Source of the DNA: Bacteroidetes bacterium GWF2_43_63
Lineage (GTDB): Bacteria > Bacteroidota > Bacteroidia > Bacteroidales > DTU049
Assembly: GCA_001769275.1 (NCBI GenBank)
Contig: MEOQ01000009.1
Span: forward strand, 1 to 64,000
Direction of reading: 5' to 3'
Length of the DNA: 64,000 nt
The position numbers and the translations under genes were made by a program. A model generated the notes under the pieces. The model ran no database searches, had not been told where the DNA came from, and was given only the letters and a program-made list of their open reading frames with translations. Positions 483 to 18,191 of the stretch are shown here, piece by piece; within the stretch, counting starts at the first letter, position 1; every line of letters starts with the position of its first letter.

Positions 483-1163
483 TTATCCCTTATCTGAGAT
501 CTTGCTGAGTGCGTCTTTATTAAGAATCGAAATCTGACCTGCATCGAATGCAATTATTCTATCATGGCTCATTTCCGATAAAACTCGGCTGACGCTTTCG
601 CGCGAAGTGCCGATCAGATCGCCCATTTCGCCACGCGTGAGTGGCATGTTGAATTCATCGCTTTCGAATAATTTCTCTGAAAAGCATAAAATTGTTTCTG
701 CAACTAATCCGGGAATCTGTTTTTGAGCAAGACTTGCATACCGGAAATAGTCGTTCAGTTCATTTCGACACAACTCAACAATAAGCTCGTAGGCAAATTT
801 GCCGTTGCTGAAAATCAGATTGCGAAATATCCCAAGATCGATGAAACAAACTTCAGCATTGTTGATGGCAGTAACGGAAAACTGATTTATTTTCTCTCCA
901 AAATTAGTAGGCAAACCCAGAAAAGTCGGTGCTTTCACAACACGCAGAATTTTATCACGCGTGGGACCCTGCATATGCACTTTAGCCATGCCTTTGCGCA
1001 AATACGCCACATTGAGCGACAATGCATTTTGTTTGATGATAGACTCACCTTTTTTAAAATGTACCGAAACGCTATTGTTTTCAAGATCCTGAAACTCATC
1101 ATTGCTGAGATGACAGGTCGCGGCAGCTTTAAGCTTACAATCTTTGCAGTTATGTGATATCAT
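483..1163 (-). CDS. Crp/Fnr-family transcriptional regulator
   Basis: A 226-residue cyclic-nucleotide-binding-fold regulator with a C-terminal winged helix-turn-helix. The N-terminus has Cys6, Cys9 and Cys17 in a CxxC-x7-C arrangement, which in this superfamily can bind an Fe-S cluster or sense redox state; whether it does so here is inference. The recognition helix reads GTSRESVSRVL near residue 187. This is the Arg-Glu-x3-Arg pattern that E. coli CRP uses to read TGTGA. The gene diverges from the dsrE2-tusA-hdr operon, and two TGTGA-N6-TCACA-like sites lie in the shared intergenic region, so it probably controls both itself and that operon. The effector is unknown. Confidence 0.88.
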   Translation of the reverse strand: MISHNCKDCKLKAAATCHLSNDEFQDLENNSVSVHFKKGESIIKQNALSLNVAYLRKGMAKVHMQGPTRDKILRVVKAPTFLGLPTNFGEKINQFSVTAINNAEVCFIDLGIFRNLIFSNGKFAYELIVELCRNELNDYFRYASLAQKQIPGLVAETILCFSEKLFESDEFNMPLTRGEMGDLIGTSRESVSRVLSEMSHDRIIAFDAGQISILNKDALSKISDKG

Positions 1164-1304: not shown

Positions 1305-1850
1305 ATGAACGAAGAATTCGAAAAACAATTTTTAGAGCTCCAGAAAAAAGTCGGCAAAATTGAAAAAGGAACCAAAGACCAGTTGACCATGGTCGTTTTT
1401 TCAGGAGATCTTGATAAACAGATTGCAGCCATGATTATCTCCACCGGTGCTGCAGCCTTTGATATGAAAGTGAAGCTTTTCTTTACTTTTTGGGCCACTG
1501 CTGCCCTGCGTGATCCAAAGAAAAAAGTCGGAGGAAAGAATTTCCTTGGAAAAATGTTCGGCATGATGCTCCCAAAAGGCGCTGGCAAACTGAAATTATC
1601 GAAAATGCACATGATGGGAATGGGTGCGTCAATGATCAAAGGTTTAATGAAAAAGAAAAAAGTGGCTTCCTTGCCTGAAATGTTCAAAACCGCTGGAGAA
1701 CTCGGTGTTGAAATCAATGTTTGCGAAATGTCGATGGATCTGATGGGCTTCAAACCCGAGGAACTCATCGATTATCCGCACATGAAAATCTGCGGTGTGG
1801 CTACATTCCTGGCCGATGCTGCCGAAAGTAAAGTTCAAATGTTCATTTAA
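1305..1850 (+). CDS. dsrE2: DsrE2-like sulfur-relay protein
   Basis: A 181-residue DsrE/DsrF-superfamily protein. The pattern INVCEMSMDLMGFKPEEL around Cys140 matches DsrE2 proteins, whose conserved Cys carries sulfur as a persulfide or thiosulfonate; Cys163 is a second thiol. The middle segment (residues 75-120) is rich in Met, Gly and Lys, as in the DsrE2 group. ATG 1305 is chosen because a -7 box lies at 1277-1284. The gene is followed 17 bases later by a tusA-like gene. TusA-DsrE2 pairs are known sulfur-transfer partners in sulfur-oxidising bacteria and archaea. First gene of the operon that continues into the Hdr/Qmo-like subunits. Confidence 0.85.
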   Translation: MNEEFEKQFLELQKKVGKIEKGTKDQLTMVVFSGDLDKQIAAMIISTGAAAFDMKVKLFFTFWATAALRDPKKKVGGKNFLGKMFGMMLPKGAGKLKLSKMHMMGMGASMIKGLMKKKKVASLPEMFKTAGELGVEINVCEMSMDLMGFKPEELIDYPHMKICGVATFLADAAESKVQMFI

Positions 1851-1867: not shown

Positions 1868-2119
1868 ATGACAAACGAAGAATTGAAAGCGCTGACCGCG
1901 AACCAGACTGTGGATGCACGTGGAACAGCTTGCCCGGGCCCGCTGCTCGCAGCTAAAAAAGCCATGGGGGAAATCGAATCCGGCGAAATTATGGAAATCC
2001 TCTCATCGGACGAAGGAACTAAACACGATATTCCGAAATGGTGCGAGAAAATGGAACATGAGTTTCTCGGAATCGTGGAAGAAGACAGCTATTCAAGACT
2101 ATTCCTGCGTAAAGCATAG
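1868..2119 (+). CDS. tusA: TusA/SirA-family sulfur carrier
   Basis: An 83-residue TusA-fold protein. The signature DARGTACPGPL places the active thiol at Cys22 in the CPGP motif, which carries persulfide sulfur. Length and motif are complete. It lies 17 bases after dsrE2 and about 100 bases before the mvhD-like gene. In sulfur oxidisers with Hdr-like (sHdr) clusters, TusA and DsrE deliver sulfur to the Hdr complex; a similar role is inferred here. TusA also serves tRNA thiolation in other bacteria, but the neighbourhood argues for sulfur energy metabolism. Confidence 0.85.
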   Translation: MTNEELKALTANQTVDARGTACPGPLLAAKKAMGEIESGEIMEILSSDEGTKHDIPKWCEKMEHEFLGIVEEDSYSRLFLRKA

Positions 2120-2219: not shown

Positions 2220-2660
2220 ATGGAAAACACAGCTTTCCGACCCAAAATCCTGGTCTTTTCTACTGATAAGATTTCTGATCCGGGAATCGATCAGGCGGGA
2301 CTTCGCAAAATTCATTATTCACCTTCGGTGTATGTTATAAGTATGCCCTGCTCTTCCGGCATCAAGCCGCGCTGGATTATGCATGCCCTGGAACAGGGCT
2401 TTGACGGCGTATTCATTGCGGCCGACGGCCACGAATGTTCCTACAGTCCGCAATGTCCGGAGCATACCAATAAAATTATCACCGACACGCAGGATCTGAT
2501 GAGGGCGAAAAACATCAGCCCAAAACGCATCCGTATGGCAGCTATATGCTCGGTATGTGCAGAGCCGTTTGCCGGGCACATGGAAAATTTTGCAAAGATT
2601 CTGGGTGAAATCGGAAGCATTACCAATGAACTGGGATCATCTTCAACCAACGAAAAATAA
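2220..2660 (+). CDS. MvhD/FrhD-like iron-sulfur protein
   Basis: A 146-residue protein of the 'hydrogenase iron-sulfur subunit' family (MvhD), which passes electrons to HdrA through a [2Fe-2S] cluster. Visible Cys are at 44, 73, 79, 110 and 113, in the order usual for the family after its first motif. The N-terminal CxxC normally found near residue 12 is absent: that segment reads FSTDKISDPG. Cluster ligation may therefore differ. It ends 5 bases before the HdrA-like gene. In Desulfovibrio the MvhD domain is fused to QmoB; here it is a separate protein. No hydrogenase gene is present, so the usual hydrogenase partner is missing. Confidence 0.75.
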   Translation: MENTAFRPKILVFSTDKISDPGIDQAGLRKIHYSPSVYVISMPCSSGIKPRWIMHALEQGFDGVFIAADGHECSYSPQCPEHTNKIITDTQDLMRAKNISPKRIRMAAICSVCAEPFAGHMENFAKILGEIGSITNELGSSSTNEK

Positions 2661-2665: not shown

Positions 2666-5410
2666 ATGCAGGAAGAAAAGAAAATATTTGACACATTGGT
2701 GATCGGCGGCGGTATTGCAGGTCAGGAAGCTGCACTGAGTCTCGCCGGTATGGAAAACCAGGTGCTGATGGTCGAAAAAGGACTTTCGATCGGTGGCAAG
2801 ATGATTCAACTCAGTAAGGTCTTCCCTACCCTTGACTGCGCAGCCTGCATTACCACACCTAAAATGTCGGAAACAGCCAGACATGAGAATATTCATCTTA
2901 TGCTCAACAGCGAGATCAATTCTGTGGTAAAAAACGATCATGGTTTTGAAGTCAATTTCACAAAAAACCCACGGTATATTATTGCCGAAAACTGCACCGG
3001 ATGCCAGTTGTGTGAGGTTGCCTGCCCTGAAGTGCGCAGCGATGAATACAATACCAATCTGGCGGGACGTAAAGTAGCATATATTCCATTTTCACTGGCG
3101 AATCCGCGTATTGCAACCATCGATCGACAAGATGTTTCAGCGCCCTGCATCAATGAATGTCCGGGCGGTGTGAAACCCTATGGCTATATTACATTGGTTC
3201 GTAATGGCCAGTACGAAGATGCTATGAAATTACACATGGAGGACATTCCCCTTCCGGGAAGCCTTGGGCGCGCTTGTTACGCACCTTGTCAGAACGCCTG
3301 CACACGCGCAAGTCTGGAAGCACCGGTTGATATACGTCAGATTAAAAGATTTTTTGCAGAAGACTTTTACAATAAATTTCCTGATGCTCCTGCCGTAAAC
3401 ATTGAAAAAAAATCCGGAAGAAAAATTGCCGTTATTGGCTCCGGTCCGGCCGGTCTCACAGCCGCATACCAACTTGCTTTGAAAGGTCATCAGGTGAAAA
3501 TTTTCGAAGCCGCACCTGTTGCAGGCGGAATGCTGGCGCTCACGCTACCTGAATATCGACTTCCGAAAACCGTGGTGGCACGCGATGTTCAGAATATAAC
3601 CGCGCTGGGCATTGAAATTGAGCTCAATCATAAAGTTGAAGATCTGAATAAACTGAAATCCGAAGGATTTGATGCTGTCTTTGTTTCCGTCGGCACACAC
3701 CACACAGGATCACTCGGTGTTGAGGGATCTGATCTTAAAGGAATTGTATCATGTCTCGATTTTTTACGCGAAGCCAATATCGGACAAAAACAAGATCTGC
3801 GCGGAAAAAAAGTAATGGTGATTGGTGGTGGAAATACAGCCATCGATGCGGCCCGTACATCGCTGCGACTCGGTGCTGAAAAAGTGACCGTGGTCTATCG
3901 TCGCAGCCGCGCCGAAATGCCATGCTTCGCTCCCGAAATTCACGAAGCTGAAGAAGAAGGTGTTCAGATTGCGATTCTGCGCAATCCAACACGTTTTATG
4001 GGCGAAAACGGGGTACTGAGAAAAGCTGAACTTATTAAAATGGAACTCTCCGAACCCGATGCCAGTGGTCGTAAAAAACCAGTCCCTGTCAATGGTTCAG
4101 AATATCTTGAAGACGTTGATTTGGTCATCGAAGCCATCGGACTGCAATCATCTGCAACAGTTTTCTCAGGCCAGATTGAGCTGGATAAGACCGGAGTAAT
4201 AAAAACGAATGATAAAACACTGCAAACGTCGGTTCCGCATATTTTTGCCGGAGGCGATAGTGTGAGCGGCGCTTCAACAATTATCGAAGCTGCCGGTATG
4301 GGAAAACGTGCTGCATTTTATCTCGATAAATTTCTTGCCGGCGAAAATCCGGATGCTTATGAATTCGGAGATAAACTCCCGGCTGTAGATAAATTCAAAG
4401 TACTGAGCCGCCCCGGTATTGAATACAAACGCCCGCTGGCACACAAGCTGCGCAGCCCTGAGGAACGAAAAAAAGATTTTCTCGACGCCGAACTCACCTA
4501 CTCCGAAGCGGAAGTAAAACTTAGTACAGAGCGCTGCCTCGACTGCAGCAACTGTCGCGAATGTCATCAGTGTGTAACCGCTTGTCCGGCTTATGCCATC
4601 GACTTTTCTCAGAAAAAAGAAGTTGTAACTGCAGAAGCAAAATCGGTGATTATCTCTACGGGTTTCAAACTTTTTCCACCATCCGGCAAGCCCGAATATG
4701 GCTACGAAAAATACCCGAATGTAATCGACTCCCTGCAAATGGATCGCCTGATTGCACCAACGCGTCCGTACAACAACGTACTGCGTCCCGGCGATGGAAA
4801 AACACCTGATAATATTGCGTATGTTTTATGTACCGGATCGCGTGATTCAAGTATCGAAAATCACGCATGCGGACTTGAATGTTCGAACAATCCAATTTGT
4901 TCTCAAATCTGTTGCATGTATTCCATCAAACAGGCACAGCTGCTGATGGGCGCTCTGCCATTGGCTGATATCACTATTTACTATATGGATATCCGTGCTT
5001 TTGGAAAAGGTTATGAGGAATTTTTTGTTCAGTCCAAAGGAATGGGCGTGAGTTTCATCAAAGGGAAAATTGCAAAAATAAACGAAAAGGAAGATGGCAG
5101 CGGCGATCTGATTCTTCGCTACGAAGATGTGACCACCGGCACTTACAAAGAAGCCAAACATGATTTGGTCGTTCTGTCTGTTGGAGTTCTTCCCGATAAA
5201 ACAATTCCGCAGATGTTTACCAATGCTAATCTTGAACTTGATGAATTCAACTACGTGAAACAACCCGATGAAATGCTGAATCCTGCTAAAACCAGTATTG
5301 AAGGGGTCTTTGTTGCTGGTACTGCATGCGGCCCAAAAGATATTCCGGACTCAATTCTGTCAGCCGGATGTGCCGCAGCAGAAGTTGCATCATATTTAAA
5401 AACAGTTTAA
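2666..5410 (+). CDS. HdrA/QmoA-like flavoprotein with inserted GltD/NfnB-type NAD(P)H oxidoreductase
   Basis: A 914-residue fusion. Residues 1-150 are the first half of an HdrA/QmoA-like protein: FAD motif GGGIAG (14-19), the family segment FPTLDCAACITTPKM and a [4Fe-4S] motif at Cys110-Cys120. Residues about 153-620 are a complete GltD/NfnB-like module: Cys 161, 165, 204, 208 and 212 for Fe-S clusters, FAD motif GSGPAG (258-263) and NAD(P) motif GGGNTA (387-392). HdrA resumes with a Cys-rich motif (Cys 624, 627, 630, 633, 636, 640) and runs to residue 914. The insert-free paralog at 20020-21468 marks both junctions. The protein should carry two FADs and several Fe-S clusters and could bifurcate or confurcate electrons with NAD(P)H. 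This mechanism is inferred. Confidence 0.9.
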   Translation: MQEEKKIFDTLVIGGGIAGQEAALSLAGMENQVLMVEKGLSIGGKMIQLSKVFPTLDCAACITTPKMSETARHENIHLMLNSEINSVVKNDHGFEVNFTKNPRYIIAENCTGCQLCEVACPEVRSDEYNTNLAGRKVAYIPFSLANPRIATIDRQDVSAPCINECPGGVKPYGYITLVRNGQYEDAMKLHMEDIPLPGSLGRACYAPCQNACTRASLEAPVDIRQIKRFFAEDFYNKFPDAPAVNIEKKSGRKIAVIGSGPAGLTAAYQLALKGHQVKIFEAAPVAGGMLALTLPEYRLPKTVVARDVQNITALGIEIELNHKVEDLNKLKSEGFDAVFVSVGTHHTGSLGVEGSDLKGIVSCLDFLREANIGQKQDLRGKKVMVIGGGNTAIDAARTSLRLGAEKVTVVYRRSRAEMPCFAPEIHEAEEEGVQIAILRNPTRFMGENGVLRKAELIKMELSEPDASGRKKPVPVNGSEYLEDVDLVIEAIGLQSSATVFSGQIELDKTGVIKTNDKTLQTSVPHIFAGGDSVSGASTIIEAAGMGKRAAFYLDKFLAGENPDAYEFGDKLPAVDKFKVLSRPGIEYKRPLAHKLRSPEERKKDFLDAELTYSEAEVKLSTERCLDCSNCRECHQCVTACPAYAIDFSQKKEVVTAEAKSVIISTGFKLFPPSGKPEYGYEKYPNVIDSLQMDRLIAPTRPYNNVLRPGDGKTPDNIAYVLCTGSRDSSIENHACGLECSNNPICSQICCMYSIKQAQLLMGALPLADITIYYMDIRAFGKGYEEFFVQSKGMGVSFIKGKIAKINEKEDGSGDLILRYEDVTTGTYKEAKHDLVVLSVGVLPDKTIPQMFTNANLELDEFNYVKQPDEMLNPAKTSIEGVFVAGTACGPKDIPDSILSAGCAAAEVASYLKTV

Positions 5411-5420: not shown

Positions 5421-7409
5421 ATGAATAATAAGATAGGTGTCTATATTTGTCATTGCGGCGGCAATATCTCCGATTATGTTGATGTAGCTGAAGTGCAACG
5501 TCTGATGAAGGACGAAGATGGTGTGGTGATTTCCAAACATGTGATGTTTGCCTGCGCCGACTCCAATCAAAAGGAAATGATTGAAGATATTGAATCGCAG
5601 AATCTCGATGCCATAGTTGTAGCATCGTGTTCTCCAAAACTGCACACACACACGTTTCGCGGCGTTGCTGAGCGCGCTGGTTTGAATAAATACAACTACA
5701 TTCAGGCAAATATCCGTGAACAATGCTCATGGCCGCACAGCGACAAACCACTGGATGCAACGCATAAAGCAGTAGGACTCATCCGTGCTGCCATCAAAAA
5801 AGCAGCGTTGTCCGAAGCGCTTGAAACCATTGAGATCGAAGCGAAAGACGCATCACTTGTTATTGGTGCTGGTGTTGCCGGAATGAAGGCTGCAATTGAA
5901 CTTGCAGGCATCGGCAACCAGGTTTTTCTGATCGAAAAAGAAGCGCATGTTGGTGGAAAACTACTTGAAAATGGAAAACTTTTTCCTACCAGTCAAAATG
6001 GAAAAGAACTTGCAGCCGGCTTACTGAGCCAGATTAAAGCCAATCCGAAAATCACGTTGTTTACTGAAACCGAAGTCGAAAAAGTTTCGGGCAGTGTCGG
6101 AAATTTTTCTGTTGATGTGAAAGTTCGCATGGCCGGAACCAACACAGAGACTATGACTCTGGCCGTTGGTTCTGTGCTTGTTGCAACCGGATATGCACAT
6201 TATCAGCCCAAAGAAAGTGAATACGGCTATGGTCTGTCAGACCGTGTGATTACACTTCCCGAGCTGAAAAAGCGCATAGAAGAAAACAACGGTGTAATCA
6301 CGCACAATGGCAAACCAGTGAAATCGCTTGCTTTTGTCTATTGCGTAGGAAGCCGACAAAGTAAAGGTGAAAATAAATATTGCTCACGCATGTGCTGCTC
6401 GTCGGCCATTCATACCTCGCTGCTGCTGAAGGAAAGCAACCGCGATATGAAAATTCTGCATTTGTACCGCGACATCCGCACCTACGGAAAACAGGAAATC
6501 ATGTATGAGAAATCATCGAAACAGGGCGATATCTATCTGAAGTTTGAAGAAAAAGAAGCGCCTGTTGTTGATGTGGTCAACAATACCATCACAGTAAAAC
6601 TGAAAGATTATCTCACACAAAAAAAAGAAATTGAATTTCAACCCGACATGCTGGTGCTTGTAACCGGAGCCGTTGCGCGCGAAGACAGTGCAGATGTTTC
6701 AGCGAAATTCAAAATTCCCCGCGGCGCTGATAAATTTTTCAACGAAATCCATCCTAAACTGAAGCCGGTTGAAACAGTCATAAACGGTGTGTTTATCGGT
6801 GGTTCATGCCAGGGACCGAAAAACATAAGCGAGTCGGTACAATCCTCTTCGTCGGCTGTATCAAAAATTGCTGCATTAATTAAAGACGGACTTGTTCAAC
6901 TTGAACCGATCATCGCCCGCGTAAACGCTGATGCTTGCTTGTGGTGCGGTAAATGTGCCGCTGTTTGCGAGTACGACGCATTGAAAGAAATGACGTTTAA
7001 CGGAAAACAAATTGCCGAAGTAAACCCTGCAACCTGCAAGGGATGCGGTATTTGCACACCCGTTTGTCCAACCGATGCGCTGGAAGTAATCATGTACACC
7101 AATTCCGAAATGGAATCGATGATTGACGGATTTATGGAAAACGTTGTACTGGAGCCATCGACCGAAGACACGGAAGAAGAATCTGTTGCCAGTGGACCGG
7201 TGAAAATGAAGGAGCATCCGCAACTTTGGCGTCAGATTGCAGCCAGCATTGCTACAGAACACAAGACCATACCTGAAATTGCACAAACCATTGGTATGGA
7301 CAAGGACCTTGTGACCTGGCATGTGATGACTATGAATAAGTACAACGTGCTCATGGCCGATGGAATGGACAGCAAAGAACAGTATTACTATTACAAATTA
7401 AAAAATTAG
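5421..7409 (+). CDS. HdrA/QmoB-like flavin and iron-sulfur subunit
   Basis: A 662-residue HdrA-family protein. The N-terminal domain (1-135) has the HdrA start ICHCGGNI (Cys10, Cys12) with further Cys at 45, 70 and 102. The FAD motif GAGVAG is at 149-154, followed by the conserved family segments. Two [4Fe-4S] ferredoxin motifs are at 506-516 and 539-549. Residues about 596-662 form an unusual C-terminal extension that looks like a small winged helix (IPEIAQTIGMDKDLVTWHV). QmoB of sulfate reducers instead ends in an MvhD domain, which here is a separate gene. It starts 10 bases after the fused HdrA gene and ends 5 bases before the qmoC-like gene. Likely central electron-distributing subunit of the complex. 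Confidence 0.87.
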   Translation: MNNKIGVYICHCGGNISDYVDVAEVQRLMKDEDGVVISKHVMFACADSNQKEMIEDIESQNLDAIVVASCSPKLHTHTFRGVAERAGLNKYNYIQANIREQCSWPHSDKPLDATHKAVGLIRAAIKKAALSEALETIEIEAKDASLVIGAGVAGMKAAIELAGIGNQVFLIEKEAHVGGKLLENGKLFPTSQNGKELAAGLLSQIKANPKITLFTETEVEKVSGSVGNFSVDVKVRMAGTNTETMTLAVGSVLVATGYAHYQPKESEYGYGLSDRVITLPELKKRIEENNGVITHNGKPVKSLAFVYCVGSRQSKGENKYCSRMCCSSAIHTSLLLKESNRDMKILHLYRDIRTYGKQEIMYEKSSKQGDIYLKFEEKEAPVVDVVNNTITVKLKDYLTQKKEIEFQPDMLVLVTGAVAREDSADVSAKFKIPRGADKFFNEIHPKLKPVETVINGVFIGGSCQGPKNISESVQSSSSAVSKIAALIKDGLVQLEPIIARVNADACLWCGKCAAVCEYDALKEMTFNGKQIAEVNPATCKGCGICTPVCPTDALEVIMYTNSEMESMIDGFMENVVLEPSTEDTEEESVASGPVKMKEHPQLWRQIAASIATEHKTIPEIAQTIGMDKDLVTWHVMTMNKYNVLMADGMDSKEQYYYYKLKN

Positions 7410-7414: not shown

Positions 7415-8494
7415 ATGGCCACGATCAATTTTGAATTTGCTGACGATATAAAAAAATTCGGTGCGAAAGATTTCGACGCGTGTTTCAACTGCGGCACCTG
7501 TACTGCAATCTGCGACTTGTCGGACGGTGACAATTCATTTCCCCGGAAAATGATTCGCTACACCACGCTCGGAATCACAGATGATATAAAAACATCGCTC
7601 GACCCATGGCTGTGCTATTATTGCGGAGACTGCTCTACCAGCTGCCCGCGGCAGGCCGATCCGGGCAACCTGATGATGTCGCTGCGCCGCTGGCTGATGT
7701 CGAAATACGACTGGACCGGACTTTCAGGACTTCTGTATCGTCATATGAGCGCGTACATTGTGGCTTTTTTACTTGTCGTCGGTGGAATCATCGGCGCATA
7801 TATGAGTGATGTATTCACACAGGAAGAATGGCTTCACTACGGACACCTGTTCGAAATGCTTGCTATTGCCGCCATCTTTGTGGTCATTCTACTACCGAAT
7901 ATTATCCGCATGTGGTTTTTCACCGTTTGGAAACCCACAAAAAAATTCAACATCCAGCATCATGTAAAAGCGCTTGGAGACTTGATTATACACATGTTTA
8001 CGCAAAAGCGATCACTCGATTGTGCCGAAGAACGTATAGATAAAGTCTGGTATTATGAGCATTTATTACTGGTTTTCAGTTATCTGTCTTTGTTATTTGT
8101 AACCGTTTTTCTTGATTGGTTCAGCACCGAAAGCGTGTTTGTAAATGTGTTTGGCTATGTGGTTAGCGGAATCATTTTTATTGTCACCACCGATTTTGTA
8201 ATCCGCCGCATTCGTAAGCGCAGCGAAAAAAGTAAATTCTCCCATCCATCGGACTGGTTCTTTGTGATCTGGCTGCTCATGATGGGAATTTCAGCATTCG
8301 CAGTACGCGTACTGATCGATACGAACCTGCTCGAAAACACATTTGGCGTATATTTATTTCACCTGACGGTGTTGGTACAATGGGCGCTCATCATTGTCCC
8401 ATTCGGCAAATGGACCCATTTTCTGTACCGCTCATTCGCCATGTATTTCGAAAAAGTGAAATCGTTTTCGCGACCGGTCGGAAAGAAAAAATAA
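7415..8494 (+). CDS. QmoC-like HdrC/cytochrome b fusion (membrane subunit)
   Basis: A 359-residue protein. The HdrC-like N-terminus has two cysteine motifs, Cys23-26-29-33 (with Asp instead of the usual Pro after the last Cys) and Cys67-70-73-77. The C-terminal half has about six hydrophobic helices, as in NarI/HdrE-type b-type cytochromes, with several His available as heme ligands. This layout is that of QmoC, which connects the soluble Hdr-like flavoproteins to menaquinone. It is the last gene of the operon and is followed by a hairpin terminator. A decayed copy of residues about 265-325 lies at 21486-21672. Confidence 0.87.
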   Translation: MATINFEFADDIKKFGAKDFDACFNCGTCTAICDLSDGDNSFPRKMIRYTTLGITDDIKTSLDPWLCYYCGDCSTSCPRQADPGNLMMSLRRWLMSKYDWTGLSGLLYRHMSAYIVAFLLVVGGIIGAYMSDVFTQEEWLHYGHLFEMLAIAAIFVVILLPNIIRMWFFTVWKPTKKFNIQHHVKALGDLIIHMFTQKRSLDCAEERIDKVWYYEHLLLVFSYLSLLFVTVFLDWFSTESVFVNVFGYVVSGIIFIVTTDFVIRRIRKRSEKSKFSHPSDWFFVIWLLMMGISAFAVRVLIDTNLLENTFGVYLFHLTVLVQWALIIVPFGKWTHFLYRSFAMYFEKVKSFSRPVGKKK

Positions 8495-8563: not shown

Positions 8564-9349
8564 TCAAACAAGTTCTGTTGCAATTCTTTCAAAGGACTCA
8601 ATAATGCTTTTATCCGTCTGTTGGAAAACACATTGTCCTTTTTCAGCAGCAACCCCAACTTCGGCAACCAGTGGAATTTGTCCAAGTAGTTTCACATGAC
8701 ATTCCTCTGCAAGTCTTTGTCCACCACCTGATCCGAAAATAAAATACTTTTCATCCGGATGATTGGCCGGTGTAAACCACGACATATTCTCAATTACGCC
8801 AAGGACAGGGATATTCAAATCAGGATTCTGGAACATGGATGCAGCCTTGCGAGCATCATTCAGCGCTATTTCCTGCGGAGTCGTTACTAAAACAGCTCCA
8901 TGAATATTCAGTTTTTGAACGGCGGTAAGCTGAATGTCACCTGTACCGGGAGGAAAATCAATAATCATAAAATCAATTTTCCCCCACTGCGAAAATTCCA
9001 GTAATTGGGTGAATGCATTTGCTACCATTGGCCCGCGCCAGATAAGTCCCTGGCTATTTTCGATAAAAAACCCGATTGACATGATTTTTACCCCGTGTTT
9101 TTCAATAGGCAGAATAATTTGCTTTCCGTCTATTTCATTCGCCAGTGGTTTTTCATTTTCAATTCCAAACATTCGGGGAATCGATGGTCCATAAATATCA
9201 GCGTCAACCAATGCTACTTTGTATCCTTGCCGGGCCAGTGCTACTGCAAGATTGGCCGATACTGTTGATTTTCCTACTCCGCCTTTTCCGGATGCTACAA
9301 CAATAATTTTGGCGACATCGGGCAACGAAAGTTTTTCAAAAGCATCCAT
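8564..9349 (-). CDS. mrp: Mrp/ApbC-type P-loop ATPase, iron-sulfur carrier
   Basis: A 261-residue Mrp/NBP35-family protein. The deviant Walker A motif SGKGGVGKST begins near residue 20, followed by DADIYGPSIPRMFG and FPPGTGD, all typical of Mrp. It lacks the N-terminal DUF59 domain found in many Mrp proteins. The CxxC that ligates Fe-S in most family members is replaced around MSWFTPANHPDEKY, a form I associate with Bacteroidota. It probably carries or delivers Fe-S clusters. Its start overlaps the OsmC stop by one base. It is the last gene of the 17-gene minus-strand run, which fits a role in maturing the many Fe-S proteins nearby. Confidence 0.85.
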   Translation of the reverse strand: MDAFEKLSLPDVAKIIVVASGKGGVGKSTVSANLAVALARQGYKVALVDADIYGPSIPRMFGIENEKPLANEIDGKQIILPIEKHGVKIMSIGFFIENSQGLIWRGPMVANAFTQLLEFSQWGKIDFMIIDFPPGTGDIQLTAVQKLNIHGAVLVTTPQEIALNDARKAASMFQNPDLNIPVLGVIENMSWFTPANHPDEKYFIFGSGGGQRLAEECHVKLLGQIPLVAEVGVAAEKGQCVFQQTDKSIIESFERIATELV

Positions 9350-9753
9350 TACTTTATAATTATTTCATGAGTAATACTAATACCTGCCTGTGAAAAGAGC
9401 ACCCCAACCGGACACGTTTTTTCGGTTGTTTCATAGCACTTTTCAAGTTTCAGCAATTCTTCATCCGATTGAATGCGTAAGAGGATATGAACATCGGTAA
9501 TAGTTGAAGCACCATCTTTTTGATCAGCGTTTACCTCAACGTCCATTTTTTCGAATTGAATGCGCATTTTCTGAGCAACCATTGCGAATATTGTTCCCAC
9601 ACAGCCACTAAGCGACATTACGCATAATTCAAGTGCCGTAGGGCCATTGTTGCTGCCGCCTTTTGCTTCGGGTAAATCGACAACGGTACTGTGATTGCGG
9701 CCATTGTCAACAACCGACTGAAATTGTTTTGTCCAGAGAGAATTTGATTTCAT
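9349..9753 (-). CDS. OsmC-family protein
   Basis: A 134-residue OsmC/Ohr-fold protein. The two reactive Cys typical of the family are visible in SLSGCVG and KTCPVGVL. Family members reduce organic hydroperoxides or act on other thiol-reactive compounds. The closest match in layout is the general OsmC/YhfA type rather than Ohr. It sits 9 bases after the trans-sulfuration lyase and abuts mrp, so it may deal with reactive sulfur or oxidants produced by this pathway; that is inference. Confidence 0.8.
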   Translation of the reverse strand: MKSNSLWTKQFQSVVDNGRNHSTVVDLPEAKGGSNNGPTALELCVMSLSGCVGTIFAMVAQKMRIQFEKMDVEVNADQKDGASTITDVHILLRIQSDEELLKLEKCYETTEKTCPVGVLFSQAGISITHEIIIK

Positions 9754-9762
9754 TGTTTTATT

Positions 9763-10944
9763 TTAAAGGATTTCAAGTGCGTTATTTAAATCAGAAATTA
9801 TATCATCAACATCTTCAATACCAACTGAGAAACGGACCAAATCATCCGTAATTCCGGCGGCCAGTTTATTTTCTTTACTCACCGCTGCATGGGTCATTGA
9901 AGCAGGATGCTGGATCAGCGTTTCGACACCGCCCAACGAAACAGCCAACATAGCAAGATGAACGCTGTCCATTAGTTTTTTCCCGGCATCATAGCCGCCT
10001 TTCAACCCAAAACTCATCATTGAGCCGGAACCATTCATTTGCAATTTTGCCAGTTCATATTGAGGATGATTTGTCAAACCCGGATATCTTATCCACTCAA
10101 CTTTTGGATGTGCCTGCAAAAATTCCGCGACTTTCATTGCGTTTTCCTGTGCCCGGTCAATGCGTATTGAAAGTGTTTTCACACCACGCAAAACCATAAA
10201 AGCCTGTGTTGGATCCATATTGCTGCCAAGATAAACCATAGAGTGCCTGATTTTTTTATACAAATCCTCCCCTTTTGTAACGATGATTCCTCCAACAATA
10301 TCAGCATGTCCGTTTATAAATTTGGTTACTGAATGTAAAACCACATCGGCTCCAAGATCAAGAGGCTTCTGTAAATACGGTGAACAGAAAGTGTTGTCGA
10401 CTACAAGAATCAGATTATATTGTTTAGCAATCTTTGCACATGCTGCAATGTCTGTAATATCCATAGTTGGATTAGCAGGGGTTTCAATATAAAGAACTTT
10501 TGTATTTGATTTAATAGCGGCCACAATATTTTCGATATTGCTTGTGTTTACAAAGCTGGCTTCGACATTGAATCGGGAAAAGTCTTGTTCGAGCAGTCCT
10601 CTTGCCGGACCATAAACAGCATCAGAACTAACAATATGACTGCCTGCATTTAATAAAGCCATGTAAACTGCGCTTATAGCGCCCATACCCGAGCTGGTGG
10701 CAATTCCGTTATAGCCATTTTCAAGTTCAGCAATATTGTGCTCAAGTGCGTTGATGGTTGGATTTCCAATGCGGGTGTAAATATACCCGTCGCTCTTCCC
10801 TGCAAAGCAATCAGCCCCATGTTGGGCGTTCTTGAATCTGAATGTCGAAGTCTGATAAATGGGAACCGATGCGCTTCCAAATTCATCTTCGAATGCACCC
10901 GCATGCACGAGTTTTGTGTTGAAACCTTTGTCTTTTGTTTTCAT
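9763..10944 (-). CDS. PLP-dependent trans-sulfuration enzyme (cystathionine/methionine gamma-lyase family)
   Basis: A 393-residue Cys/Met-metabolism PLP enzyme. The PLP lysine is Lys208 in HSVTKFINGH, the ring-binding Asp is in VVDNTF (Asp183) and YTRIGNPT holds the phosphate-binding Tyr/Arg. The loop reads VYGPARG; methionine gamma-lyases usually have Cys just after YG, so the equivalent position is Pro113 and classical methionine gamma-lyase is less likely. Cystathionine gamma-lyase, homocysteine lyase or a sulfhydrylase remain possible. Its position between hdrB and osmC suggests that it releases or uses sulfide or thiols for the pathway. Confidence 0.85.
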   Translation of the reverse strand: MKTKDKGFNTKLVHAGAFEDEFGSASVPIYQTSTFRFKNAQHGADCFAGKSDGYIYTRIGNPTINALEHNIAELENGYNGIATSSGMGAISAVYMALLNAGSHIVSSDAVYGPARGLLEQDFSRFNVEASFVNTSNIENIVAAIKSNTKVLYIETPANPTMDITDIAACAKIAKQYNLILVVDNTFCSPYLQKPLDLGADVVLHSVTKFINGHADIVGGIIVTKGEDLYKKIRHSMVYLGSNMDPTQAFMVLRGVKTLSIRIDRAQENAMKVAEFLQAHPKVEWIRYPGLTNHPQYELAKLQMNGSGSMMSFGLKGGYDAGKKLMDSVHLAMLAVSLGGVETLIQHPASMTHAAVSKENKLAAGITDDLVRFSVGIEDVDDIISDLNNALEIL

Positions 10945-10970
10945 GTTTTCGTTTTGTATTTCTAAGTTGC

Positions 10971-12035
10971 TTAAACCTTCAAAACTGAAGGTTTTTCGGG
11001 TTGCCCCAAATCTGCATGATTAATTCCTTTATATTTTTCCACGGCATCATATTGAATTCCAAGCTTATCAAGCAAAGGTTCTACAGCCACCTGATGCACC
11101 TGCAATCCAATATCCCATGGATCGTATCCTAAAAGCAAGCCTGCCAATTCCTCGTAGGTAAGGACAGGAATTCCCATTCCGTTTTCGCCGTAGGTAATTC
11201 CCTCCATTTCTGCAATCACATATTGCCAGCGATCGAGAAAATAGGTACAGCCCGGGCAATTGGCAATAATGCAATCGGGCTTATAAGGTTCCATGGAATC
11301 AAATTTCATTTTTGAATTTGCCACAGAATATCCGCGGTTCGATTTAAGCAGATATTGTCTGAATCCAAATCCGCAGCAATGGCGACGTTCTGGATAATCG
11401 ACCTGTGCCCCGCCCCATGCATCAATCATTCCGGCAAGAACATAAGGGAATTCTGCGCCACCAACACCCTTTTCAGGAAATATCTTTGCGTAGTGGCACC
11501 CAACATGATCCACTACTTTCAATTGCTCGCCGGTCTGTTTATTCAGCAATCTATAAGTTGCCTTTGCCGCAATCTCATTGCGGAATTTATAGATCAGATC
11601 GCTGGTATGTGCCAGATTTTTAGGAATTTCAAAGGTCATTCCTGTTGTCTGTTTCAGGATTTCCCGTGCTTGTTTTTCTTTTTCAGGAAAATGCTGCCAG
11701 GTTTCAATCACTTCGGAATATATGCCAAACGACGTGACGCAGGAGCAAACAAAATTTTCGAATCCGGCTTCTGTCATCAATGCAAATTGGCGCGCAACAA
11801 CGGTCATAGTGGTTTCGAACGGAATAACGCCCGAATGATATGCAATGCCAGTGCAAGTGGTTTGGCGCGGATCGTCGAAAATATTTTTACCAAGATCGTT
11901 GGCGAGAATTTTCATGAATAAATCTTCGGCAGCCGGAAAAAAATTCTGTCGAATGCAGCTGCGTGCCAGATAGTAATTGTCATCGGCAATTTCTTTCTGA
12001 TGCTTTTCCCAGTTTTCGTTTTTCTGATATTTCAT
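10971..12035 (-). CDS. HdrB-like CCG-domain protein
   Basis: A 354-residue heterodisulfide-reductase B-like protein. The C-terminal CCG domain is intact (Cys180, Cys220-221, Cys260, Cys263, that is C-x39-CC-x38-CxxC) and should bind a noncubane [4Fe-4S] cluster as in methanogen HdrB. The N-terminal CCG domain is altered: Cys27, then Thr60-Cys61 instead of Cys-Cys, then Cys97-x-Cys99. One catalytic cluster is therefore missing or changed. HdrB is the subunit that cleaves or forms disulfides or handles sulfur substrates. It lies 15 bases after hdrC. With the plus-strand HdrA and QmoC homologs it would complete an HdrABC-type complex. Confidence 0.85.
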   Translation of the reverse strand: MKYQKNENWEKHQKEIADDNYYLARSCIRQNFFPAAEDLFMKILANDLGKNIFDDPRQTTCTGIAYHSGVIPFETTMTVVARQFALMTEAGFENFVCSCVTSFGIYSEVIETWQHFPEKEKQAREILKQTTGMTFEIPKNLAHTSDLIYKFRNEIAAKATYRLLNKQTGEQLKVVDHVGCHYAKIFPEKGVGGAEFPYVLAGMIDAWGGAQVDYPERRHCCGFGFRQYLLKSNRGYSVANSKMKFDSMEPYKPDCIIANCPGCTYFLDRWQYVIAEMEGITYGENGMGIPVLTYEELAGLLLGYDPWDIGLQVHQVAVEPLLDKLGIQYDAVEKYKGINHADLGQPEKPSVLKV

Positions 12036-12050
12036 TTTGTATTCTCCCTT

Positions 12051-12734
12051 CTATTCTCCGTTGTAGGTTTTATTGAAATATTCATCGTGACCACTACTGA
12101 ATTCAATTCCATGATCAGCAGCATAACGAGCCGATGCTTCTTCAATTTTGTTGAATCGTGCTGTTCCACCGGTTGCATCAAAAATTTTCTTTAAGTCAAT
12201 CAGCGATTGCTTTTCCGTGTTGCGCAGTGCTCCTGCTTTGTCCTGCTTATAACTTGCTCCCAAACGATTCAAAACATCGGTTCTGTTTTCACGCATCCAT
12301 TTCCAAATCGGGCCCTGCTCGGGATACATCTCATTGCTGACTTCATCAATGTAAACACAATAGCCATATTCCAAAATGTGATCTCCAACCGTTCGCTTGA
12401 TGGCGAGCTGTCTTCGGCCTTGTTCGCTGTGCATAAACAGACCTGAATCCACCGACAATGCCCGCAAAGACTGAATGATGTAGCATGGCACATTGTCGCG
12501 CGGGCAGCGGGTTTTGCATGATAGGCATTCACCACAACGCCAGATATCATCCTTTTTTAAAAGCTCTTCGAGATCTTTTTCATTTTCTTTCTGAACCAGA
12601 TCGACAATCTGTCGCGGATCGTAATCGCTCACTGCGGCCGCCGGACAAACAGCAGTGCAGGTTCCGCAATTGATGCAGGCCTTCATGCCTTCCTGGTAGC
12701 GAATGTCCTTTTTTAATGCTTCATATAAATTCAT
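12051..12734 (-). CDS. HdrC-like iron-sulfur protein
   Basis: A 227-residue protein with two [4Fe-4S] motifs, Cys20-23-26-30 followed by Pro and Cys67-70-73-77 followed by Pro. The spacing and the segment after the second motif (YIIQSLRALSVDSG) match HdrC, which carries electrons between HdrA and HdrB. The C-terminal 120 residues are longer than in minimal HdrC and are not recognised. It overlaps the stop of the upstream ferredoxin by 4 bases (translational coupling) and lies just before hdrB. Confidence 0.85.
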   Translation of the reverse strand: MNLYEALKKDIRYQEGMKACINCGTCTAVCPAAAVSDYDPRQIVDLVQKENEKDLEELLKKDDIWRCGECLSCKTRCPRDNVPCYIIQSLRALSVDSGLFMHSEQGRRQLAIKRTVGDHILEYGYCVYIDEVSNEMYPEQGPIWKWMRENRTDVLNRLGASYKQDKAGALRNTEKQSLIDLKKIFDATGGTARFNKIEEASARYAADHGIEFSSGHDEYFNKTYNGE

Positions 12735-12997
12735 GATGCACTTCTACTTATTTCAACAATACGAATGGCACCGGTAACACATACAGCCACACATTTGCCG
12801 CACAGATCGCACAGTTCTGTATTGCACTCAAACCGAGTTGGCTTGCACGGAACATCCATCGCAGTACAATACTTTACACAACGTGCACAGCTGTAATTAG
12901 ACACACGACTAATGGCTCTTTTTTCACAAACATTGTAACACAGTCCACAATTGGTGCACAATTGACAATCAATTTCTATAACTTTTTTCACGACCAT
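12731..12997 (-). CDS. Cys-rich ferredoxin-like protein
   Basis: An 88-residue protein with 14 Cys. Two [4Fe-4S] motifs are clear, Cys14-17-20-24 and Cys63-66-69-73. Extra Cys at 11, 37, 40, 44, 51 and 58 lie between them, so a third cluster or a bound metal is possible. The arrangement differs from a simple 2[4Fe-4S] ferredoxin. Its stop overlaps the hdrC start, so it is probably an electron carrier or accessory subunit of the HdrBC module. Confidence 0.8.
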   Translation of the reverse strand: MVVKKVIEIDCQLCTNCGLCYNVCEKRAISRVSNYSCARCVKYCTAMDVPCKPTRFECNTELCDLCGKCVAVCVTGAIRIVEISRSAS

Positions 12998-13024
12998 TGT
13001 TTCACACTCTTTAATAAATCTGTT

Positions 13025-13537
13025 TTAAAATTCTATTCCTTTGCGGGCTTCGACCCCGCGGGAATAATAATGTTTTCTTTCGATCATTTCAGTTACCAGA
13101 TCGGCAATTTCAAATAGCTGCTCCGGGGCATTGCGACCGGTCAAAACAATTTCCATTTCATCGGGTTTTTGCTGCAACATAGCAATCACTTCGTCAAGCG
13201 GAATTAATTTGTAATACAGAGCAATGCAAATTTCATCAAGCACAACCACATCATATTGATTATTGCTGATGATGGCCGATACGCAATTCAAGCCGTTGCG
13301 GGCGGCATCAATGTCTTTCTGTAATGGTTTGTTTTTGATAAAACAATCAAGTCCGAACTGATGAATTTCAATTTCAGGAAAATGTTTCAAGGAATCCAGT
13401 TCAGAATAATGCATTCCTTTGACAAACTGGGCTATATAGGTTTTCTTTCCTGCACCTGCAGCCCGCACTGCAAGCCCAATTGCAGCTGTAGTCTTTCCTT
13501 TGCCATTGCCTGTATATAAATGAATATAGCCTTTCAT
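13025..13537 (-). CDS. cobO: Cob(I)alamin/cobyrinate adenosyltransferase, CobA/CobO/BtuR type
   Basis: A 170-residue protein with P-loop GNGKGKTT near residue 10, the middle motif VVLDEICIALYY and the C-terminal motif ARKGIEF, all diagnostic of CobA/CobO. It adenosylates cobalt corrinoids with ATP. No other cobalamin genes are present in the window, so its location in an Hdr/NifX-type operon is odd. It may serve a corrinoid enzyme encoded elsewhere. It lies 15 bases after the radical SAM gene and 27 before the ferredoxin gene. Confidence 0.88.
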   Translation of the reverse strand: MKGYIHLYTGNGKGKTTAAIGLAVRAAGAGKKTYIAQFVKGMHYSELDSLKHFPEIEIHQFGLDCFIKNKPLQKDIDAARNGLNCVSAIISNNQYDVVVLDEICIALYYKLIPLDEVIAMLQQKPDEMEIVLTGRNAPEQLFEIADLVTEMIERKHYYSRGVEARKGIEF

Positions 13538-13552
13538 GGTTCTGACAATTTT

Positions 13553-14491
13553 TTAGACTTTAAATTTTCTCAAATAATAAAAATGACCGTCATGCTCAAC
13601 CTTTGCGATATAGCCCGAACTAATCATTTCAGAAAGAATTGTTTCATCCGCTTTGTCTTTAATCAAAATCTCACACATCACATCGTCGCGAATTGGATGG
13701 ACAGAGCACATGTTTGCAATGTCTTCAATCACGTTTCCTGTCACACCTACAAAAGTTCCTTCGAATCCGGTTATCAATTCGGTATTGATTCTTTTATCTG
13801 AAAAAATATTCCACGCCCGGTTAATACTGCTTTCGTCAGGCGACTTGACCGATGAATCAGCCGGTGGACGGGTAGGAATTGAAAGATAAGCTACCGAAGG
13901 CGATAACGCAGCTACCAAATCAGCTGTCTGAGCCACACAACCGGCATCATCATTCACCCCCGCAACAAGCATCGTTTCGCTGATCAATAAACCATTGAAC
14001 ATGTCTTTGAAAGCCTGAAGGCCACTCAGATATTTGCTGAATGTAAGACCTTTCGCCGGACGATTCATTTTTTTCCAGACAGCTTCGTCGGGCGCATCTA
14101 CCTTTACCGAAACAAGATCGGCATAATTCAGGTCTTCGCGCACCTGAACATCGAATAGCAACGATGCATTTGTGATTACAGCAATCGGAATTTTAAAATC
14201 TTTCAACCTTAAAATTGTTTTGCCAAGATTCAAATCAAGCGTTGGTTCACCGTTTGCAACAATCGTCAGATAATCGGGCTTGTCGTTTTCTGATAGTAAT
14301 GATAAATGATTCTTTACTTCAGAAAAAATGACGTCCGGCGTAAAAAATGTTTCGCGGTTGATGGTGTAATACTTTGTGATTCCGACCTGACAGTACACAC
14401 ATGAATAGGAGCAGAGTTTCCGCGAAGGGATGTTGTTTATTCCCAGACTCTTTCCCAAACGCCGCGATGGAACAGGCCCAAAGGTAATCAT
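13553..14491 (-). CDS. Radical SAM protein (COG0731-like)
   Basis: A 312-residue protein beginning FGPVPSRRLGKSLGINNIP and carrying the cluster motif CSYSCVYC (C-x3-C-x2-C) near residue 27. This start is characteristic of the COG0731 type of radical SAM protein. The segment VANGEPTLDLNLG is the usual GGE-like strand. The last 60 residues look like a winged-helix tail. The substrate is unknown. Its 4-base overlap with the MinD-ferredoxin gene and its NifX-type neighbours suggest a role in metal-cofactor or protein modification; this is inference. Confidence 0.8.
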   Translation of the reverse strand: MITFGPVPSRRLGKSLGINNIPSRKLCSYSCVYCQVGITKYYTINRETFFTPDVIFSEVKNHLSLLSENDKPDYLTIVANGEPTLDLNLGKTILRLKDFKIPIAVITNASLLFDVQVREDLNYADLVSVKVDAPDEAVWKKMNRPAKGLTFSKYLSGLQAFKDMFNGLLISETMLVAGVNDDAGCVAQTADLVAALSPSVAYLSIPTRPPADSSVKSPDESSINRAWNIFSDKRINTELITGFEGTFVGVTGNVIEDIANMCSVHPIRDDVMCEILIKDKADETILSEMISSGYIAKVEHDGHFYYLRKFKV

Positions 14492-15357
14492 GGTGTTCTG
14501 GTTTTAATGATTTCCCAAACCCGACTGGTGTTTATGCTTACAACAGAATCAGGTGCCCACTCAACATAACTTTTTCCATTGACCATAGCCTCGGTAACAA
14601 CCGGATCAAATGGCAACATGGCAACCACCGGAACATTATTCAGCTTGCAATATTGTTTGATTTCGGTTGTCATTTCATGATTCAGATCATATTTATTAAT
14701 GACAACCATGGCGAAAATTCTAAAGTGAAAGACCGCATCCATGGCGCGTTGCAAATCGTGTAAACCTGAACGGGTAGGCTCCGTTACAATAATCACTTTA
14801 TCTATCCCGGTAATGGTTGAAATAACCGGGCAGCCGATTCCAGGAGGACCGTCATAGAGAATCAGATCATGATCATTTTCGACAGCCATTTGTTTTGATT
14901 TTTCGCGAACCAGACTCACCAGCCGGCCCGAATTCTCTTCGCCCGGAGCCAGCCGTCCGTACACCATGTGACCATATCGGAAAGTACCACTATATAACCT
15001 GCTTTTATCATTATCAATCATGGAAATGGCTTTAAACGGGCAAACCCGCTCACATAAACGACATCCATCGCAGCTGATTTTCGTAATTTCAACCTTGCCA
15101 TCAACTGTAGTTATTGCATCAAACCCGCAGTAATCAATGCATTTCCCACAATTGGTGCAAACAGAATAATCAATCACAGCTTTCTGTCCCGAAACAAAAA
15201 CTTCTTCTTCGGTATGTTGCGGCTGAAAAAGCAAATACTGATTGGCTGCATCCACATCACAATCGGCTAATAAAATATTTTTCGCCAGACTTGCAAGAGA
15301 AGCCGCAAAGCTGCTTTTCCCTGTACCGCCTTTACCACTGATTACTGCTATTTCCAT
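14488..15357 (-). CDS. MinD-superfamily ATPase with inserted ferredoxin domain (copy 2)
   Basis: A 289-residue protein. The deviant Walker A motif SGKGGTGKSS is near residue 8. Two [4Fe-4S] motifs (CTNCGKCIDYC and CDGCRLCERVC) are inserted around residues 65-105, and DGPPGIGCP is the Walker-B region. It is a paralog of the next gene upstream (15348-16226) and the two overlap by 10 bases. Pairs of such ATPases occur in anaerobes next to NifX-type and DUF5320 genes, but their function is not established. Assembly of a metal cluster, in the manner of Mrp/NBP35, is the likely role. Confidence 0.82.
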   Translation of the reverse strand: MEIAVISGKGGTGKSSFAASLASLAKNILLADCDVDAANQYLLFQPQHTEEEVFVSGQKAVIDYSVCTNCGKCIDYCGFDAITTVDGKVEITKISCDGCRLCERVCPFKAISMIDNDKSRLYSGTFRYGHMVYGRLAPGEENSGRLVSLVREKSKQMAVENDHDLILYDGPPGIGCPVISTITGIDKVIIVTEPTRSGLHDLQRAMDAVFHFRIFAMVVINKYDLNHEMTTEIKQYCKLNNVPVVAMLPFDPVVTEAMVNGKSYVEWAPDSVVSINTSRVWEIIKTRTP

Positions 15358-16226: not shown

Positions 16227-16665
16227 ATTCCAAACGGGTCTTTTTATAGCACAGAGTTGGCTCTGTTAGCCGTTTCCATAAACTATTATTCCATGTACCC
16301 AAAGCCTGATGAGTGAGGAAATATTTTTGTGGAATCGGATGTGTGCCAACAACCACCGTTAATCCGAATTTTTCAGTAATGAATTTTTCGAAATATTCAA
16401 TATTACGGCAAGGCGGATAACCAACCAGCATGCCGGTTGCCAGATGCACATGGGTCACACCGTTTTTTTTCATTTCGACAGGAGCGTATTCAATATTTCC
16501 GCCCGGGCATCCATCACACGTGGTGTATGCTGCAATTTCAACATCCTGGTTTTTATAAATAGAAAAGGCTCCTTCGCGTTTTTGCAGGGATCTGAAACAT
16601 TTTCCACCGGCGCAGGTGTGATAGCGGTTGCAAATAATAATACCAACTTTAATCTTCTCCATCAT
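16219..16665 (-). CDS. CGGC-domain protein
   Basis: A 148-residue protein of the CGGC family (PF08821 type). Cys motifs are visible: CNRYHTCAGGKC near the start, CDGCPGG in the middle (the motif matching the family name) and YPPCRN. The Cys spacing suggests metal binding. Function is unknown in the family. It overlaps its neighbours on both sides (4 and 8 bases), and it recurs beside MinD-ferredoxin ATPases in anaerobes. Confidence 0.8.
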   Translation of the reverse strand: MMEKIKVGIIICNRYHTCAGGKCFRSLQKREGAFSIYKNQDVEIAAYTTCDGCPGGNIEYAPVEMKKNGVTHVHLATGMLVGYPPCRNIEYFEKFITEKFGLTVVVGTHPIPQKYFLTHQALGTWNNSLWKRLTEPTLCYKKTRLEYD

Positions 16666-17895: not shown

Positions 17896-17914
17896 TTTTT
17901 TCTGTTTAAAAAAT

Positions 17915-17938
17915 GGGGAGGTGAAGAGCATCCTCCCC
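17915..17938 (-). terminator. Hairpin between DUF5320 and NifX-type genes
   Basis: On the minus strand a perfect 7-bp stem, GGGGAGG / CCTCCCC, with a 10-base loop is followed by ATTTTTT. It lies after the DUF5320 stop and 20 bases before ATG 17895. It could be an attenuating terminator inside the operon, or a structure that hides a GGAGG-like ribosome binding site. Confidence 0.5.
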
Positions 17939-18181: not shown

Positions 18182-18191
18182 AGCAATGATT

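Follow-up and report, generated by a model that had tools for sequence, protein, structure and literature searches.

In a stretch of 64,000 nucleotides from Bacteroidetes bacterium GWF2_43_63 (contig MEOQ01000009.1, positions 1 to 64,000; hereafter, the window), a single open reading frame (ORF) encodes one chain in which an HdrA-like flavoprotein is interrupted by a complete module of the GltD/NfnB type (Table 1). Across related proteins this module has been gained or lost repeatedly at one and the same site, and it seems to have moved between HdrA paralogues. We propose, giving it about an even chance, that the fusion is a bacterial variant of type III HdrA, i.e., a StnC-like module that oxidises reduced nicotinamide adenine dinucleotide phosphate (NADPH), set into a QmoA-like HdrA and serving as the port for NADPH in a Qmo-like membrane complex, which would exchange electrons with menaquinone and TusA-bound sulfane sulfur. 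Papers are cited below by their PubMed Central (PMC) identifiers.

The split architecture, described in a first-pass annotation made from the DNA alone as a 914-residue HdrA-like chain divided by a full GltD/NfnB module, was borne out by domain searches, PDB relatives and an AlphaFold model. The HdrA models of NCBIfam match the HdrA parts and its GltD/PRK12771 models match the middle, in which Pfam recognises Fer4_20 and Pyr_redox domains. Among PDB chains, residues 155–565 are related to NfnABC, StnC and NfnB, and residues 624–908 to methanogen HdrA. In the AlphaFold model, built with 40 sequences (mean predicted local distance difference test score, pLDDT, 84.5; predicted template modelling score, pTM, 0.79), residues 157–640 superpose on Nfn-ABC with a Z of 48.6 (472 residues) and on StnC with a Z of 47.2 (470 residues), while methanogen HdrA aligns over the range 7–914 with 414 residues and a Z of 38.2. 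The insert is placed between the two [4Fe–4S] motifs of the ferredoxin domain that is itself inserted in HdrA, and both motifs are kept. Alignment with an insert-free paralogue encoded elsewhere in the window puts the insert at about residues 153–625, close to the junctions of 150 and 620 first named from the same comparison. These junctions are good to a few residues, the right one being blurred by a few residues because the RCLxC motif of the module directly abuts the HdrA ferredoxin motif CxxCxxCxxxC.

The fusion is not a product of misassembly. A scan of one genome per species (84,980 species) yielded 308 stretches encoding a relative, of which the best 80 were kept for locus counts. In 72 of these 80 independent loci from other genomes, among them the complete genome of Petrimonas sp. 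IBARAKI (L094), the N-terminal part, the module and the C-terminal part stand in this order in a single frame, which in a few loci is incomplete at one end. The first-pass annotation had named a misassembled gene as what would refute it and a count of other genomes with the insertion as a check; the form recurs as just counted, misassembly is rejected, and we see practically no chance that the gene is an artefact of assembly or gene prediction. The remaining eight loci are either cut by contig ends (L072, L080, L089, L090, L096 and L097) or split in two frames (L063 and L098); the split genes (L063, 9073–11742; L098, 9001–11734) reflect sequencing errors or decayed copies.

By record title, 71 of the 80 loci are from Bacteroidota, including Paludibacter, Petrimonas, Proteiniphilum and Draconibacterium; the others are titled Aminicenantes (three), Acidobacteria, Spirochaetes, Deltaproteobacteria and Actinomycetota (one each) or simply 'bacterium' (two). 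Phylum-wide genome searches, with a match threshold of E ≤ 1e-125, scored only the best two to four candidates per genome, so that absences in them are weak. Matches were obtained in 3 of 395 genomes of the window's phylum (the window's own, G270 and G321), in 26 of 297 genomes of the phylum of the Aminicenantes record (24 nearly full-query; 3 of the 26 already in the locus set) and in 16 of 296 genomes of the phylum of the Actinomycetota record (12 nearly full-query; one already in the locus set). Within the window's family (12 genomes, including the window's), the full fusion was found in the window's genome only. No separate insert-free copy of the close class was found in 34 of the genomes behind the 80 loci, searched with the paralogue as a query at E ≤ 1e-60; the further full-length matches to the paralogue in these genomes are all at 34–43% identity. 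Carrying both the fusion and the insert-free form thus makes the window's genome unusual among the genomes searched. Fifteen plasmid records matched the fusion query, none covering 80% of it, and the 15 best places correspond to the GltD region only.

Residue conservation was counted over 72 sequences, namely the window's fusion, 69 complete ORFs from the 80 loci, L101 and L102. Cysteines 58, 61, 110, 113, 116, 120, 161, 165, 204, 208, 212, 624, 630, 633, 636 and 640 are each present in 72/72, and C627 in 71/72. K227 (72/72) aligns with K170 of StnC, whereas the two NfnB chains shown have Glu at that position; thus, the Glu ligand of NfnB at the proximal [4Fe–4S] cluster is not found and K227 stands in its place. 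The position of StnC C114, residue 171 in the fusions, is Pro, Ala or Val. The GltD domain of StnC has been reported to oxidise NADPH, with K170 and C114 tuning the proximal cluster and with a non-bifurcating flavin adenine dinucleotide (FAD) (PMC10482914). Judged by these residues, the module fits StnC better than NfnB, so that an entry module for NADPH is the best reading, with the flavin of HdrA as the candidate bifurcating site. This HdrA flavin site retains K755 (72/72), which aligns with Lys409 of HdrA in 5odc, a residue reported to hydrogen-bond N5 of its FAD (PMC6405883); the thioredoxin reductase (TrxR)-like FAD core with K409 that is typical of type III HdrA is therefore found in the fusions.

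The dinucleotide-binding motif of the module reads GGGN(T/V)A, with A392 in 72/72 and R412/R413 in 72/72, and is not the GxGxxG (NAD) motif of type III HdrA. Such arginines favour NADP(H). Together with the motif rule for NAD versus NADP, taken from PMC12054007, they would favour NADP(H) over NAD(H). The first-pass suggestion of NAD(P)H delivery by the module to a complex of the HdrA type is supported. At the end of the insert, in the EERKKDF...RCLxC stretch, residues 593–616 before RCLDC align to residues 8–31 of the NfnB N-terminus (phmmer, −2.0 bits, a hint only). StnC-like and PRK12771-like proteins carry that stretch after the GltD domain, as does the fusion module, and the motif order of the module may represent a circular shift common to StnC-like proteins. 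If this order is right, cysteines belonging to a single cluster region would sit at both ends of the module, an arrangement that would be suited to its insertion in a ferredoxin loop.

The fusion and its QmoB-like neighbour are mirror images of each other. Of the 69 complete QmoB-like proteins, 68 have the HdrA N-terminal motif, 67 have two C-terminal ferredoxin motifs and three have a CxxCxxCxxxC motif before residue 450. Equivalents of C58/C61 and K755 are missing from the window's QmoB-like protein and from those of ten displayed loci (25 aligned). The fusion, in turn, has C58/C61 and K755 and is without the HdrA N-terminal domain and the C-terminal ferredoxin. The same complementarity has been used to argue for HdrA heterodimers in anaerobic methanotrophic (ANME) archaea (PMC9012536), and the complementary domains lead us to predict a heterodimer of the fusion with the QmoB-like subunit.

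The conserved operon has the gene order DsrE2-TusA-FlpD-fusion-QmoB-like-QmoC-like (Table 1). The QmoC-like protein scores 160.7 bits against the equivalog model qmoC, whose cut-off of 300 is not reached. HdrBC-like genes, which in the window are possible partners, also lie near the fusion in L054, L068 and L086. Insert-free HdrA genes stand in TusA-FlpD-HdrA-QmoB-QmoC operons in two genomes of the window's family (G010/L099 and G001/L100) and in two genomes of another family of the same phylum (G270/L109 and G050/L110). These insert-free operons have a more distant DsrE-like gene in place of DsrE2 (by Pfam in L099 and L109, by eye in L100), located after qmoC in L109 and L110. Rhodanese and YeeE/YedE genes lie near the operon of L100, and YedE-TusA-DsrE clusters have been noted in sulfur-reducing and disproportionating anaerobes (PMC8528874); both fit the proposed tie to sulfane sulfur. 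The tail of the window's QmoB-like protein (about residues 596–661; 7206–7406) by eye resembles a winged-helix domain; in insert-free operons it forms a small ORF of its own, located between qmoB and qmoC (L100, 6582–6854; L109, 10727–11041).

Table 1. Features of the fusion gene and its surroundings in the window. Locus counts include only loci in which the gene was found or could have fitted; fractions of 72 refer to the aligned fusions.
Feature	Position	Strand	Remarks
Divergent Crp/Fnr-type regulator	483..1163	-	Crp/Fnr homologue ≤3.4 kilobases upstream in 38/65 loci
DsrE2-like sulfur carrier	1305..1850	+	PF13686; near fusion in 63/69 loci
TusA sulfur carrier with CPGP motif	1868..2119	+	PF01206; 74/74 loci; CPxP in 72/72 complete TusA proteins
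FlpD/MvhD	2220..2660	+	PF02662; 74/74 loci
HdrA/GltD fusion gene	2666..5410	+	Single ORF, 914 residues
HdrA N-terminal part, residues 1-152	2666..3121	+	FAD-binding TrxR-like half with C58/C61 and first [4Fe–4S] motif
First [4Fe–4S] motif of inserted ferredoxin domain, C110/113/116/120	2993..3025	+	72/72 fusions
Inserted GltD/StnC-type module, about residues 153-625	3122..4540	+	C161, C165, C204, C208, C212, C624; FAD site; putative NADP(H) site
GGGNTA dinucleotide-binding motif, residues 387-392	3824..3841	+	A392 72/72; R412/R413 72/72
HdrA C-terminal part, residues 626-914, stop included	4541..5410	+	
Second [4Fe–4S] motif, C630/633/636/640	4553..4585	+	72/72 fusions
K755, aligned to Lys409 of 5odc HdrA	4928..4930	+	72/72
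QmoB-like HdrA paralogue	5421..7409	+	HdrA N-terminal domain, FAD domain, two C-terminal [4Fe–4S] motifs, short C-terminal tail; 74/74 loci
QmoC-like	7415..8494	+	HdrC-type dicluster domain and hydrophobic segments; invariant H216, H316, H335; 67/67 loci
HdrB-like gene	10971..12035	-	Possible partner
HdrC-like gene	12051..12734	-	Possible partner
Insert-free HdrA paralogue, 482 residues	20020..21468	+	66% identity to fusion outside insert

Beyond the operon, the minus strand at 8564–19445 carries, as assigned partly by eye, genes for an Mrp-like ATPase, an OsmC-like protein, a gamma-lyase-like protein, HdrB, HdrC, a small ferredoxin and CobA, as well as a radical SAM protein, two MinD-type ferredoxin-ATPases and MrpORP-like proteins; these genes are possibly linked functionally to the operon. 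At 40972–44918 and 60968–63971, protein ends look like what we take to be type IX secretion sorting sequences, which fit a Bacteroidota genome.

In the proposed mechanism, electrons from NADPH would enter at the module FAD, pass through the [4Fe–4S] clusters of the module to the two retained HdrA ferredoxin clusters, and so reach the HdrA FAD at K755. From there they would move to the N-terminal cluster domain, which the QmoB-like partner would provide with participation of the fusion cysteine C61, and then through the HdrC-like domain of QmoC to menaquinone. FlpD together with the C-terminal ferredoxin of QmoB would form a further port, and TusA and DsrE2 would tie the complex to protein-bound sulfane sulfur, making TusA-bound sulfane sulfur the likeliest third partner. 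That a TusA-persulfide is the substrate is a guess, as is the direction (joint reduction by NADPH and menaquinol, or its opposite).

Two bifurcating flavins per chain, an NfnB-like module FAD in addition to the HdrA FAD, have been considered for ANME-1 (PMC9012536), and R298 (72/72) does align with Arg187 of NfnB. However, StnC shares this NfnB-type Arg, there without an N5 contact (PMC10482914), so that the match is not diagnostic for a bifurcating flavin; the invariant K227 in place of the NfnB glutamate ligand makes two bifurcating flavins still less likely, and we regard such an arrangement as very improbable. Alternatively, the complex may be a plain NAD(P)H:menaquinone oxidoreductase without bifurcation, with TusA and DsrE2 merely supplying sulfur elsewhere. 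The likeness of the module residues to the non-bifurcating StnC agrees with this, as does the position of HdrA E356 (5odc), which is Asp in 64/72 and Glu in 8/72; E356 and K409 have jointly been taken as the mark of a bifurcating HdrA flavin (PMC9430772), and this mark is thus kept only in part. Yet the linkage to TusA (74/74 loci) and DsrE2 (63/69 loci) is tight for a bystander, and the entire HdrA ferredoxin domain and K755 are retained, which makes a plain oxidoreductase unlikely in our judgement.

The direction of electron flow may also be the opposite one, with sulfane sulfur or thiols on proteins being oxidised and the electrons split between menaquinone and NADP+. HdrA chemistry is reversible. 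TusA and DsrE2 work in the cytoplasmic sulfur trafficking of sulfur oxidisers (PMC8528874). However, AprA (at the model cut-off) and DsrC were unmatched in the window's genome and no known route beyond sulfane sulfur was found there, DsrAB and Sat not having been searched for, and the sHdr gene set (hdrC1B1A-hyp-hdrC2B2) is absent from the operon. An oxidative role appears rather unlikely on these grounds.

Besides the partly kept E356 mark and the undiagnostic R298, several observations weigh against the proposed NADPH port exchanging electrons with menaquinone and sulfane sulfur. Archaeal type III HdrAs have been argued to prefer NAD on account of their GxGxxG motif (PMC12054007), and the HdrA of Moorella thermoacetica oxidises NADH (PMC9430772). 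The pLDDT of the model is low at residues 51–63, 697–703, 728–744 and 778–781, C58/C61 included, and the equation of C61 with Cys197 of PMC9012536 follows from its alignment to position 197 of 9sfi_A, so that it rests on the numbering of 9sfi_A rather than on the sequence used in that paper. Among the operon proteins that were scanned, none gave a CCG (HdrB-type) domain. In addition to AprA and DsrC, YeeE/YedE (PF04143) gave no match in the window's genome (G000) despite its TusA and DsrE2, so that the YedE-TusA-DsrE cluster is not seen there; a YeeE/YedE gene is present near the insert-free copy in G001. AprA above the cut-off was found in none of nine genomes, three of which have this fusion type (G000, G406 and G407), and the AprAB partner of Qmo was thus not found in them. 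The missing AprA, DsrC and YeeE/YedE matches in the window's genome argue against the known sulfate and reverse-Dsr routes.

QmoABC of sulfate reducers comprises an HdrA-like pair and a membrane subunit of the HdrC/cytochrome-b type. The fusion operon differs from it in the QmoC score below cut-off, in the AprA that was not found, and in its separate FlpD, its TusA and DsrE2 and its putative NADPH module. The GltD domain of StnC/Nfn-ABC (8oh5, 9bov and 9n5u) resembles the module in fold (Z 46–49), in the Lys at the proximal cluster and in the RCLxC after the GltD domain, whereas StnC couples its GltD domain with NuoG/FdhF-like domains and a bifurcating partner of the HydBC type rather than with HdrA.

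The first-pass annotation knew of no characterised HdrA with a GltD-type module at this site, which is contradicted by three studies. An NfnB insertion of the same kind has been described in HdrA of ANME-1 archaea (PMC9012536), and type III HdrA has been defined by an inserted GltD, with nine archaeal sequences, two insertion events and NADH as the proposed donor (PMC12054007). These proteins (HdrA9-11 of ANME-1 and Bathyarchaeota) are like the fusion in carrying a GltD/NfnB module in the inserted ferredoxin domain with proposed NAD(P)H entry. Compared by description, type III HdrA is archaeal, has a domain pattern nearest to HdrA1 of type I and carries GxGxxG, whereas the fusion is bacterial, carries GxGxxA and belongs to a TusA/Qmo-like operon; it shares the insertion of GltD in the ferredoxin domain, but the HdrA1-like N-terminal domain and C-terminal ferredoxin lie in the QmoB-like neighbour instead of in its own chain. 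The assayed case is the HdrA of the Hdr-type methylene-tetrahydrofolate reductase of M. thermoacetica, in which the TrxR-like domain is interrupted by GltD and for which NADH oxidation has been reported (190 U/mg, benzyl viologen as acceptor), purification of the entire Moorella complex having failed; the Sporomusa HdrA, for which no GltD domain is listed, showed 0.5 U/mg (PMC9430772). By the description in the same paper, the Moorella protein differs from the fusion in its length (about 1487 residues), its second HdrA-like half and its cluster with MetVF and MvhD. An HdrA class of about 1480–1530 residues with the same insert as the fusion (L101, G270:C4; L163; L165–L167) is about as long as the Moorella HdrA. 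In L101 the second half is QmoB-like, and the gene has as neighbours QmoC-like and FlpD genes as well as hydrogenase genes assigned by eye.

The insertion architecture is thus already known and in one case assayed, so that the possibility that it had been characterised before, which the first-pass annotation saw as refuting, largely holds for the architecture but not for the TusA/Qmo-like operon type. In the parts seen of the openly licensed PubMed Central literature, no report was found of a TusA/DsrE2/Qmo-like operon with the fusion or of module exchange between HdrA paralogues. As far as this literature was searched, the bacterial TusA/Qmo-operon form, the complementarity of fusion and QmoB, and the repeated gain and loss with apparent movement of the module are new.

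The history of the insert was followed in trees of the HdrA core, in which the insert-free L099/L100 and the window's paralogue nest inside the fusions. The paralogue branch is starred in all four core trees, and the L099/L100 branch is starred in one (96/82) and unstarred in the three others. A single clade of 30 fusions as against five insert-free rows is rejected by the approximately unbiased (AU) test (p 0.0013). The 30 modules of the TusA/Qmo operon type group in one clade (100/100), apart from ten further GltD domains and from the L101 and L102 modules. Within this operon type, one gain and at least two losses are the simplest reading. In a wider core tree (41 insert-bearing and 14 insert-free rows), the starred branches force at least seven state changes; this tree had been rebuilt without eight rows (five QmoB-like neighbours among 19 'insert-free' rows and three duplicate fusion copies), with the same minimum of changes. 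We note that long branches remain and that L075 is placed differently in the core and module trees.

A pair of HdrAs of about 1130 residues, L164 (G669:C13) and L144 (G936:C192), suggests exchange of the module. Their flanks are 70% identical and their modules 50%. The L164 module shares 63% identity with those of L128, from the same genome, and L124, where the flanks share 47%; for L144 and L140 the figures are 60% in the module and 44% in the flanks. The contrast between flank and module in L164 and L144 is sharp on the right side only (residues 401–623 versus the C-terminal flank). L164 sits in an HdrC-HdrB-HdrA-FlpD-hydrogenase operon, yet its module resembles those of the Qmo-type fusions. 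These identities suggest that the GltD module may have been swapped between HdrA paralogues.

A bolder extension, which we regard as tentative and rather doubtful, is that the GltD module is an exchangeable cassette, passing from one HdrA paralogue to another at a fixed ferredoxin loop, and that the membrane-bound complex of the TusA operon would use NADPH in driving electrons from menaquinol to TusA-bound sulfane sulfur, an undescribed confurcating sulfur respiration, or its reverse. Few GltD-inserted HdrAs have been counted in print (nine archaeal sequences, PMC12054007), and the form is found here in many Bacteroidota and in several other titled groups. The insert-free operons in two relatives from the window's family provide a natural control for what the putative NADPH module adds. 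The repeated gain, loss and apparent exchange of the module at one site shows how redox modules get wired into HdrA.

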